DNA from: Cryobacterium sp. CG_9.6
GTDB lineage: Bacteria; Actinomycetota; Actinomycetes; Actinomycetales; Microbacteriaceae
DNA length: 64,000 nt
Direction of reading: 5' to 3'
NCBI RefSeq assembly: GCF_029893365.1
Contig: NZ_JARXUZ010000001.1
Coordinates: 2,418,001-2,482,000 of the forward strand
Each line of letters starts with the position of its first letter. Position 1 is the first letter of the stretch. This document shows positions 40,000-43,087 of the stretch, piece after piece. The notes under the pieces are model-generated. The model did no database searches and was not told the DNA's origin. It saw only the letters and a program-made list of their open reading frames with translations. Both the position numbers and the translations under genes were made by a program.

Positions 40000-40611
40000 T
40001 TACCTGCCTTGTGGAGAGAGTGCGGGGAGGGTGCGTGGCAACCACGATTCCCGCGTCGATTCGAAATCTGCAATTCGCGCTTCGTCGCGCAGGGTCAGCC
40101 CGATGTCATCAAGACCTTCGAGCAGCCGCCATCTAGTGTAATCATCGATCACAAACGAGACTGTGAGATCACCGACACGCACGGTCTTGGTCACCAGATC
40201 GACCGTGAGTTCCAGTCCGGGATCCGACTCGATCACGCGCCAGAGGGTTTCCGCGTCGGCTTCGGTGATCTGGCCGGCCAGAAGTCCCTGCTTACCGGCA
40301 TTTCCACGAAAGATGTCGCCGAAGCGGGGGCTGAGAACCACGTCAAACCCAAAGTCGCGAAGCGCCCAGACGGCGTGCTCCCGTGAGGACCCTGTTCCAA
40401 AGTCGGCTCCGGCAACGAGCACCCGGCCACCCTGATACGGCTTCTGATTGAGCACAAATTCGGGGTCGCTGCGCCACGCGGCGAACAGAGCGTCCTCAAA
40501 TCCGGTGCGCGTGACGCGCTTGAGATAGACGGCTGGAATAATCTGGTCGGTATCGACATTGGAACGGCGAAGCGGAACGGCAATGCCGGTGACGCTGGTG
40601 AACTTTTCCAT
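40000..40611 (-). CDS. leuD: 3-isopropylmalate dehydratase small subunit
   Basis: The 203-residue LeuD forms the isopropylmalate isomerase with LeuC in leucine synthesis. Motifs: [38 protein letters not shown] and [15 protein letters not shown]. The ATG at 40611 lies 2 bp after the leuC stop, so the pair is translationally coupled. Its stop is 3 bp before the murA start, placing leucine and cell-wall/lipid genes in one probable transcript. Confidence 0.96.
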
Positions 40612-40613
40612 GA

Positions 40614-42113
40614 TTACTTGTCTCCAGTCGCTGTGGCGTGCTCGGTGACCTCTGAGGCTCTGGTGACGCCCTGCGGGAGGTCCCACGGACCCGAGAGCGT
40701 TCCACGGATGGCGGTTGCTGCGGCCACGAGAGGTGACACGAGGTGCGTGCGCCCACCCTTACCCTGACGACCCTCGAAGTTTCGGTTGCTTGTGGACGCA
40801 CAGCGTTCACCCGGAGCCAACTGGTCGGGGTTCATGCCGAGGCACATCGAGCAGCCTGCAAAGCGCCACTCGGCACCAAAATCGAGGAAGATCTTGTCGA
40901 GGCCCTCGGCTTCGGCCTCGATGCGCACGCGTGCAGAGCCCGGCACCACGAGCATGCGCACACCCTCGGCGATGCGCTGACCGCGAATCACCGCGGCGGC
41001 GGCGCGCAGGTCTTCGACCCGGCTGTTGGTGCAGGAACCGAGGAACACGGTGTCGACGTGGATATCTTTCATTGCCGTTCCGGCGGCGAGGTCCATGTAC
41101 TCCAGCGCACGCTCGGCGGCGGAACGCTCGTTGGCGTCACTGATCGTGGCCGGGTCCGGCACGGAGCCGCTGAGCGACACGCCCTGGCCGGGGTTGGTCC
41201 CCCAGGTGACAAACGGCTCAAGCTCGGAGGCATCCACGATGACCTCCGCGTCAAAGGGCGCACCGGCGTCGGTGGCCAGGGTGTCCCAGTACGCCACGGC
41301 GGCGTCCCAGTCGGCGCCCTGCGGAGCGTGTGCTCGACCCTGCAGGTAGTCGTAGGTGATCTGGTCGGGTGCCACCATTCCGGCGCGAGCACCGGCCTCA
41401 ATCGACATGTTGCAGATGGTCATGCGTCCCTCCATAGACAGCGAGCGGATGGCCTCCCCACGGTATTCGAGAACATACCCGGCGCCGCCACCGGTACCGA
41501 TGCGGGCGATGACAGCGAGGATGATGTCTTTGGCCGTCACGCCCTCCCGCAGCTGACCGTTGACCGTGATCGCCATGGTCTTGAACGGGTTGAGCGGCAG
41601 GGTCTGGGTGGCCATCACATGCTCCACCTCACTGGTACCAATGCCCAGGGCCATGGCCCCGAACGCACCGTGGGTGGAGGTGTGCGAGTCGCCGCAGACG
41701 ACGGTGATGCCGGGCTGGGTCAGTCCGAGCTGGGGCCCGACAACGTGAACGATGCCCTGCTCAATATCTCCGAGGGAGTGCAGCCGAACACCGAACTCCT
41801 CACAGTTGCGACGCAGCGTCTCGATCTGGGTGCGGCTCGTCAGATCCACGATCGGCTTGTCGATCGCCAGCGTGGGAGTGTTGTGGTCCTCCGTGGCGAT
41901 GGTGAGGTCCGGGCGGCGCAGAGGGCGACCGGCGAGCCGGAGACCGTCGAAGGCCTGCGGGCTGGTGACCTCATGCAGCAGGTGGAGATCAATGTAAATG
42001 AGGTCCGGTGTGCCGTCTTCGCCCTTGGAGACGAGGTGCTTGTCCCAGACCTTTTGCGCCAGAGTGCGCAGTGGCGCCGGAGAGGCGTTGGTGGTGGTGG
42101 AGTCTTTCATCAT
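40614..42113 (-). CDS. leuC: 3-isopropylmalate dehydratase large subunit
   Basis: The 499-residue LeuC carries the [4Fe-4S] cluster of isopropylmalate isomerase. The three ligand Cys are seen in [13 protein letters not shown] and [11 protein letters not shown]. Other motifs: [31 protein letters not shown] and [28 protein letters not shown] (42123-42130) lies nine bases before the first ATG (42113). The 113-nt region between the leader start and leuC carries a leucine-rich leader peptide and hairpin, so expression is probably leucine-sensitive. Confidence 0.97.
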
Positions 42114-42157
42114 GTCTGTGCGTCTTCCTCACGAATAGGTAGCAGCCGACGCTGAAC

Positions 42158-42198
42158 GCCGCGACGAGAAAGGCCTCAGAGTTGGGTCTCGTCGCGGC
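42158..42198 (-). promoter_or_regulatory. Leader hairpin of the leuCD attenuator
   Basis: This perfect 12-bp stem (GCCGCGACGAGA / TCTCGTCGCGGC) with a 17-nt loop begins at codon 10 of the leader peptide, right after the four Leu codons, and encloses the leader stop codon. No U-run follows, so it is not an ordinary terminator. A ribosome paused on the Leu codons would block its 5' arm. Confidence 0.75.
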
Positions 42199-42226
42199 AC
42201 AGAAGAAGAAGTCGAGCGGCCAGCAT
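42176..42226 (-). CDS. leuL: Leucine leader peptide of leuCD
   Basis: The 16-residue ORF MLAARLLLLCRDETQL includes four consecutive Leu codons (CTT CTT CTT CTG, 42211-42200) and six Leu in all. It lies 62 nt upstream of leuC and overlaps the hairpin at 42158-42198. TAGGA abuts the ATG, and TAGCCT lies 6 nt before the ATG, so the transcript could start at the ATG (leaderless). The Leu-codon sequence UCUUCUUC (42209-42202) can pair with the leuC Shine-Dalgarno GAGGAAGA (eight pairs, one G-U). The ORF, repeats and hairpin are seen; the mechanism is inferred. Confidence 0.8.
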   Translation of the reverse strand: MLAARLLLLCRDETQL

Positions 42227-42286
42227 TCCTAGAGGCTAACACTTCGGCGCGGGAGGCCGCATGCCCACCCGTCATCGTGGCCGGCG

Positions 42287-43087
42287 TCAGAGACCGTAGC
42301 TGGCCTCGAGAACGACAACGCTCACGTTGTCGTGACCGCCGTGTTCGAGGGCTTCTTCCACGAGCACATCCGCGAGACTGCGGGCATCCGTTTCGGTTGT
42401 CACATGCGTCTTCAGCACACGCGCAATGTCAATCGGTGCGAGTTCTTTCGTGAGGCCGTCCGAGCACACGATGAAGGTGTGACGACCGGATGCCGGCAGC
42501 AGCCACACATCGGCATCGACAAATTCATCCGCACCGATGGCGCGGGTGATGACATTGCGTTCCGGGTGTTTTTCGGCCTCCTCCAGCGTGATGAGGCCGG
42601 CGTCGAACATCTCCTGAACAGCGGAGTGGTCCACGCTCAGCTGCGTGAGCACGTCGCCGTTCCACGTGTAAATGCGAGAGTCCCCCACGTTGAAGGCCAT
42701 CCAGTGATAGCCCACATCGTTGCCCGCATCAACGAGTGCGACGCCGGCGAGGGTCGTTCCGGACACGGCAGCGCCGTAGTCGTCGACGGAGCTGAGATCG
42801 CGCACGGCATCGTTCGATGAGTGGATGGCGTCGAGAATTCGCTCCGGCGTGGAGGGCACATCACGTTCAATGTGCTCATCGAACACCCGAACAACGGTTT
42901 GACTGGCCACGTCCCCCTGCGCGTGTCCGCCCATACCGTCGGCCACCAGGAAGATCGGGGACTGCGCCATGACGCTGTCCTCGTTGATCTTTCGAACATG
43001 ACCCACGTCGGTACGCGCACTAAAACGGCAACGTGCGATTCCACCCACGAGGGCGATTTCGCTCACACCGGTCACGGGGAGGTGCAC
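42287..43087 (-). CDS. PP2C-family serine/threonine protein phosphatase
   Basis: The 266-residue metal-dependent phosphatase has the usual motifs: RTDVGHVRKINEDSV, FLVADGMGGHAQGDVAS, FNVGDSRIYTW, FIVCSDGLTKEL and GGHDNVSVVVLEA, with the metal-binding Asp residues all present. No membrane segment is predicted, unlike mycobacterial PstP. It would counteract a PknA/PknB-type kinase; no kinase is in the window. It lies upstream of the leuCD promoter region on the same strand. Confidence 0.93.
   Translation of the reverse strand: MHLPVTGVSEIALVGGIARCRFSARTDVGHVRKINEDSVMAQSPIFLVADGMGGHAQGDVASQTVVRVFDEHIERDVPSTPERILDAIHSSNDAVRDLSSVDDYGAAVSGTTLAGVALVDAGNDVGYHWMAFNVGDSRIYTWNGDVLTQLSVDHSAVQEMFDAGLITLEEAEKHPERNVITRAIGADEFVDADVWLLPASGRHTFIVCSDGLTKELAPIDIARVLKTHVTTETDARSLADVLVEEALEHGGHDNVSVVVLEASYGL

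Follow-up and report, generated by a model that had tools for sequence, protein, structure and literature searches.

A copy of the actinobacterial LEU element before leuC in Microbacteriaceae, probably a leucine-responsive translational attenuator

Upstream of the leuCD genes of Cryobacterium sp. CG_9.6 there is a short leader region that, judged by sequence comparison, is a second copy of the LEU element, a structure described before actinobacterial leuA by Seliverstov et al. in 2005 (PMC1262725). What is new is the placement: in Microbacteriaceae the element stands before leuC, while the element itself was known before leuA. Comparison with relatives supports, at the level of sequence, a leader ORF whose start and frame are constant, a run of leucine codons, pairing of this run with the downstream Shine-Dalgarno (SD), a hairpin and a pseudoknot as its parts. 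We consider it likely that the element before leuCD works as a leaderless, leucine-responsive translational attenuator, a degree of confidence that comes from the permutation and swap tests presented below. The LEU element was published without an agreed mechanism and against mutant data unlike attenuation (PMC1262725), and the covariation between Leu codons and SD, together with codon choice across the family, leads to a specific hypothesis for it.

The stretch of DNA analyzed (henceforth the window) comprises 64,000 nucleotides of contig NZ_JARXUZ010000001.1 (positions 2,418,001 to 2,482,000). On its minus strand, a gap of 173 bp separates the end of a gene for a PP2C-type phosphatase (42287; assigned by an NCBIfam match under the curated cut-off) from the ATG of leuC (42113). 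The features of the region are, in window coordinates:

40000..40614, minus strand: leuD, 3-isopropylmalate dehydratase small subunit, directly downstream of leuC (NCBIfam TIGR00171)
40614..42113, minus strand: leuC, 3-isopropylmalate dehydratase large subunit (NCBIfam TIGR00170), the presumed regulated gene
42123..42130, minus strand: leuC SD GAGGAAGA, forming the 3' side of the base stem (sequence, folding, covariation)
42144..42147, minus strand: GGCT, putative 3' strand of the pseudoknot (best of 12 windows by permutation)
42158..42169, minus strand: 3' arm of hairpin P2, TCTCGTCGCGGC (sequence, and both-side changes among 180 elements)
42172..42175, minus strand: loop GGCC right after the leader stop codon, putative 5' strand of the pseudoknot (pairing and permutation support)
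42176..42226, minus strand: leader ORF MLAARLLLLCRDETQL, 16 codons, ATG at 42226, TGA at 42178-42176, probably leaderless, its start 6 nt past the -10 hexamer
42187..42198, minus strand: 5' arm of hairpin P2, GCCGCGACGAGA (sequence, and both-side changes among 180 elements)
42200..42211, minus strand: Leu run CTT CTT CTT CTG, putative sensor, also the 5' side of the base stem
42202..42209, minus strand: anti-SD stretch UCUUCUUC, pairing with 42130-42123 (covariation in 125 elements)
42233..42241, minus strand: extended -10, TG-T-TAGCCT (TG at 42241-42240, TAGCCT at 42238-42233), a putative promoter judged from sequence

This layout bears out what the original prediction had read from the letters: a 16-codon ORF in which four Leu codons follow one another (42211-42200), then a hairpin of 12 bp with zero mismatches (42198-42187 with 42169-42158) and no U-tract; the count of terminator-like sites in 42050-42330 is zero. 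The leader stop codon sits in the hairpin loop, and 62 nt separate it from the leuC start. No TTGACA-type promoter site was found, and the Rfam 15 covariance models (T-box included) gave no match at E up to 1 between 40000 and 45000, nor any match at 10 loci carrying the LEU element.

The leader ORF and its spacing were compared in a set of 130 elements, a chosen part of all matches (129 from Microbacteriaceae, 12 of them from the same genus, and L068 from another family). An extended -10 of the form TG, at most one base, TANNNT is in place in 129 of the 130, and just as many have an in-frame ATG, GTG or TTG 5-7 nt past the hexamer (exactly 6 nt in 114), a spacing from which we conclude that the leader is probably leaderless. 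Among the 125 elements that could be parsed (L112, L137, L063, L064 and L151 were left unparsed), the start codon lies 29, 26, 32 or 35 nt from the hairpin, distances that keep a single frame, in all except two, for which the parser chose an overlapping GTG; these mis-framed elements, L027 and L122, were excluded from constrained folding and from the synonymous-codon tests, which leaves 123. In these 123 leaders the longest Leu run is four codons in 75, three in 43 and two in 5. In 121 of them CTT stands two codons ahead of the hairpin, although in codons 1-130 of the downstream genes CTT accounts for only 37 of 1376 Leu codons; each of the next two codons upstream is nearly always CTT or CTC, and the codon before those is mostly CTG in leuA leaders. 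In each of the 125 parsed elements, 13 nt or more lie between the beginning of the 5' arm and the leader stop codon, and at that distance a ribosome on the stop codon would, given its footprint, just have cleared the Leu run.

At this locus, the complementarity that had been noted between the Leu run and the leuC SD (42209-42202 with 42130-42123) was recovered as a duplex of UCUUCUUC with GAGGAAGA, with seven Watson-Crick pairs and one G-U pair (-10.2 kcal/mol). Taken alone, this pairing is modest evidence. A shuffled Leu run pairs equally well in 150 of 2000 trials, and only 0.6% of the 1296 synonymous versions of the four Leu codons do so with a 12-nt SD; in a 16-nt window 2% of the synonymous versions are as good, or 4.5% when weighted by codon usage. 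For the leuA copy of the same genome the figure is an unremarkable 28% (unweighted).

Across Microbacteriaceae, the pairing of the Leu run with the SD, and with it the part that the Leu codons play as anti-SD strand, is well supported by covariation. Using distinct pairs only (46 for leuC, 73 for leuA), both sets have stronger duplexes in cognate than in permuted combination (-9.91 vs -8.77 kcal/mol for leuC, -9.88 vs -8.99 kcal/mol for leuA), and in neither did any of 5000 permutations reach the cognate strength. When the downstream window was slid along the leader, the cognate effect appeared only where the window overlaps the SD (z between -1.6 and +1.3 elsewhere), a pattern that one would not expect from kinship alone. 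Exchange of SDs between the leuA and leuC copies of one genome made the duplex weaker in 18 of 27 genomes, stronger in 7 and tied in 2 (Wilcoxon P 0.0055), and these two controls account for kinship among the sequences in part. Codon choice points the same way. The median share of synonymous runs that pair equally well is 8% for leuC (n 48) and 12% for leuA (n 75), compared with 63-67% in four decoy windows, while weighting by codon usage gives a median of 4.5% for leuC and 31% for leuA, which is then no longer unusual. Synonymous codon choice in the Leu run thus favors pairing with the SD, and after weighting this holds for leuC only. The idea in the original prediction that the Leu codons double as an anti-SD is upheld by this conservation of ORF, run, hairpin and pairing, together with the covariation. 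Chance, either of the ORF or of the pairing, can be rejected given two copies in one genome, conservation throughout the family, and covariation.

The hairpin was compared in 180 elements, of which two rows look shifted by the parser and were not relied upon, and at least one place is represented twice (L140 and L178). Changes on both sides occur at pairs 3, 5, 6 and 9 of the 10-bp core, as in the five elements with CCGCAGCGAG facing CTCGCTGCGG, and in 130 of the 180 the core is identical (CCGCGACGAG with CTCGTCGCGG). Within the genus, 27 very similar sequences showed none of 21 pairs changed on both sides, and the structure did not outdo shuffles in them. For the putative pseudoknot, loop GGCC with downstream GGCU was the best of 12 windows in permutation tests (0 of 2000 permutations as good for leuA, 28 of 2000 for leuC), which makes its covariation strong in the leuA set and modest in the leuC set by this sequence measure; in L128 and L142 the two strands are replaced by AGGC with GCCU. 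Pairing between the sides of the hairpin loop was also considered and discarded, as its covariation was inconsistent (z +2.1 for leuC, -1.5 for leuA).

The second copy in the Cryobacterium genome lies directly before leuA, with 77% identity over 85 nt and the leader MLFGLLLLSCRDES. All 30 same-genus leuC loci examined carry the element (this one included; the genus set has 57 genomes). Of the 27 elements from which a first covariance model was made, 26 stand before leuC and one before leuA; the model matched 144 of 150 Microbacteriaceae genomes (92 with two matches, one with three, 51 with one, six with none), and the gene downstream of the 130 elements chosen from the matches is leuA in 80 cases and leuC in 50. 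Phylum-wide this model matched 7 of 396 genomes, too narrow a reach, and a second model (R2) was therefore used. R2 matched 121 of 198 genomes in the order and 199 of 296 in the class; in the order-wide search, 14 Microbacteriaceae genomes had two or three matches and the other 107 genomes had one, except G761 with two. The gene downstream of the 37 classified elements outside Microbacteriaceae is in every case leuA or a second paralogue of it, and of a further 34 loci 29 precede leuA and five leuB, so that leuC follows the element at none of these 71 loci. Among named leuC loci (the best 80 of 597, biased to close relatives), the element is present at 19 of 27 in Microbacteriaceae vs none of 53 in other actinobacteria; three of the genera were looked up, and most of the others we take to belong to the families given. 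Six weak matches at non-Microbacteriaceae leuC loci (E 0.4-0.8) were rejected, as they fall on the opposite strand of the hairpin.

The original prediction had named relatives of the family as the place to look, and the absence of the ORF or its Leu codons there as evidence against it. The ORF is there at the 30 same-genus loci, some of them with a shorter Leu run (e.g. L024, MVLSRRLLCRDESPS), and Leu run, hairpin and SD pairing are conserved and covary in the family; 8 of the 27 Microbacteriaceae leuC loci (among the best 80 of 597) gave no model match.

The same 80 leuC loci differ in their neighborhood. A gene for an NdgR/LtbR-like regulator of the IclR type was detected in the leuC flank (tblastn, E up to 1e-10, with a query from L298) at 51 of 53 loci from outside Microbacteriaceae and at none of the 27 within the family, among which the eight without a match to the element thus have neither. 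The NdgR/LtbR label of the query comes from position and type, and its NCBIfam matches are sub-threshold ones to the IclR family. In 40 Microbacteriaceae genomes no close relative of this protein was seen: 15 have some relative at E up to 1e-10, the best with 41% identity, in comparison with 74-78% for the best five non-Microbacteriaceae matches listed. In Streptomyces, NdgR orthologs adjoin leuCD and regulate it, according to the relevant passages of PMC4340878. The two distributions suggest that at Microbacteriaceae leuC the RNA element may have replaced an NdgR-like protein; a leuC copy with no adjacent NdgR-like gene looks like an RNA device where relatives use a transcription factor.

In the mechanism that we propose, the transcript start, the stalling, the response to leucine and the direction of regulation are deduced from the arrangement of these parts. 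Transcription would start at the leader ATG, as the -10 spacing indicates, so that ribosomes would enter at the leader itself. When Leu-tRNA is plentiful, a ribosome would translate as far as the stop codon, which lies in the hairpin loop, and depart; once it is gone, the hairpin and the loop pseudoknot would form and bring the Leu run beside the leuC SD, which the run would then cover. With scarce leucine, a ribosome stalled on the Leu codons would mask the anti-SD strand as well as the hairpin's 5' arm, leaving the SD free and leuC translated. The leucine codons would in this way be both read and, when unread, used to hide a start signal; the stem that they form is drawn in PMC1262725, where the passages on the element do not present it as the working part of a leucine-sensing switch. 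A mutation of the Leu codons would change sensor and effector together, and this could explain why the reported Streptomyces leuA-leader mutants do not fit classical attenuation.

Folding models agree with this mechanism in part. In the minimum free energy fold of the RNA from the leader ATG, the 8-bp stem of Leu run and SD and the hairpin are both present, and the overall stability is ordinary (z -1.3, 19 of 200 shuffles equally stable); the stem is absent from the fold once upstream DNA is included. In constrained folding of the 123 elements, mean openness of the SD was 0.27 free, 0.48 with a stalled ribosome and 0.36 with one at the stop codon for leuC, and 0.22, 0.46 and 0.25, respectively, for leuA, the SD being more open when stalled than when free in 36 of 48 leuC and 62 of 75 leuA elements. 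The Cryobacterium leuC locus shows no clear opening in this nested-fold model (0.39 free, 0.43 stalled and 0.48 at stop; in a second calculation 0.35, 0.30-0.46 and 0.40), nor does its leuA copy (0.52 both free and stalled). For the free RNA of this leuC locus the prediction favors 42148-42141 (up to 0.7) over the Leu run (0.23) as partner of the SD, in a model that cannot accommodate the pseudoknot, which would itself take up part of 42148-42141. Constrained folding therefore agrees with translational attenuation on average and not for the Cryobacterium leuC or leuA sequence. For the original suggestion that a stalled ribosome frees the SD, this means that the mean of 123 modeled folds is on its side and that the very sequence for which it was made gives it no clear backing.

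Other explanations have to be weighed against a leaderless translational attenuator. The view favored in PMC1262725 is a protein-bound element, with orthologs of ML1624 (carrying a DEAD-box helicase domain) named in that connection, and its passages on the element judge attenuation unlikely on the basis of Streptomyces mutants. The mutants, in the leuA leader, are reported there second-hand and in two differing accounts, and do not fit classical attenuation. The hairpin adds weight to this view, as its sequence is kept far beyond what base pairing needs (arms identical in 130 of 180 elements) and translational attenuation gives no reason for it, leaving room for a protein. A pure protein site, however, needs none of the conserved start codon, frame, -10 spacing and Leu run, and we regard a protein-bound element with an incidental or secondary leader ORF as unlikely.

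Transcription attenuation, in which transcription would be halted at high leucine by the hairpin or by Rho on RNA that is not being translated, draws on the strong hairpin just past the Leu run and on the consideration that occlusion of the SD could expose RNA to Rho; it has to contend with a locus that lacks a U-tract or terminator-like site and with a Leu run that covaries with the SD, and seems improbable to us. That leuC translation depends on coupling or reinitiation from the leader, rather than on release of the SD, we hold to be very improbable: leader and leuC would share one putative transcript with the 62-nt spacing given above, but leuC has an SD of its own, and the selected pairing hides it.

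The translational attenuator that we prefer can be extended into a broader reading, in which sensor codons and effector strand are the same, the RNA took over control of leuC from NdgR, and the whole is a modular device whose specificity is set by the codons in the anti-SD strand. We put this forward tentatively, as a possibility somewhat short of even. If true, the same scaffold would be in use with Val/Ile/Leu codons before leuB in at least one other family.

As to known systems, the LEU element in the passages of PMC1262725 shares with the present copy a Leu run within a leader ORF, a base stem in which Leu codons pair with the SD and, by the textual description given there, a pseudoknot. 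It differs in being described before leuA, the present copy being before leuC; we treat the location before leuA as part of the original description and not of the identity of the RNA. As a whole word, "leuC" occurs nowhere in the main text of that paper, and in the literature searched (mostly by listing) we recognized no report of a LEU element at leuC and saw no later test of the element. The leuA leader of Streptomyces lividans, LeuL1 (MRFGLLLLSCRGEGL), is reported to be likewise leaderless and without a typical terminator, and has FGLLLLSCR in common with the Cryobacterium leuA leader; it stands before leuA and is called an attenuator, with no SD-based mechanism in the relevant passages (PMC8079986). 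Mycobacterial polycysteine short ORFs (Canestrari et al. 2020, as described in passages of PMC9031893) are also leaderless, with contiguous codons for one amino acid and ribosome speed controlling the downstream gene, but they sense cysteine. The leaders of actinobacterial leuS and ilvB have in common a peptide rich in the regulated amino acids, whereas terminators followed by U-tracts are described for them (in passages of PMC1262725) and none is present at this leuC. The original prediction mentions none of the earlier leuA description, the leaderless layout, the pseudoknot, the leuA copy of the same genome or the lack of an NdgR-like neighbor.

Some variants of the arrangement were found on the way. 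Three genomes have a second leuA paralogue (L182, L183, L184; 53-55% identity to the Cryobacterium leuA) with a LEU element of its own, and one of the three, G151, also carries a divergent leuC element (L181). At L218 the element (leader MDGLLLLRRRDRA) precedes a leuA only 28% identical to that of Cryobacterium. This leuA passes the NCBIfam threshold of a different leuA type, which looks like a gene replacement that spared the element.

A LEU-like element also precedes leuB in another actinobacterial family (f8, and one locus in f97). The loci of this type are L220, L222, L223, L226 and L232, with a short ORF between element and leuB, and L320, L323, L324, L329, L330, L333, L335, L337, L338, L340, L342, L347 and L348, the gene at L323 passing the NCBIfam cut-off for 3-isopropylmalate dehydrogenase. 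Where read, their leaders have mixed Val/Ile/Leu codons (e.g. MRKQVVILGCRGEAS, MRHFVVILTRRGGAS) on a CCGCGGC-type hairpin, and at some loci a purine stretch further downstream could pair with the run of codons; in 16 rows, of which L324 and L329 are on the wrong strand, 90 of 5000 permutations paired as well, a result that is suggestive only.
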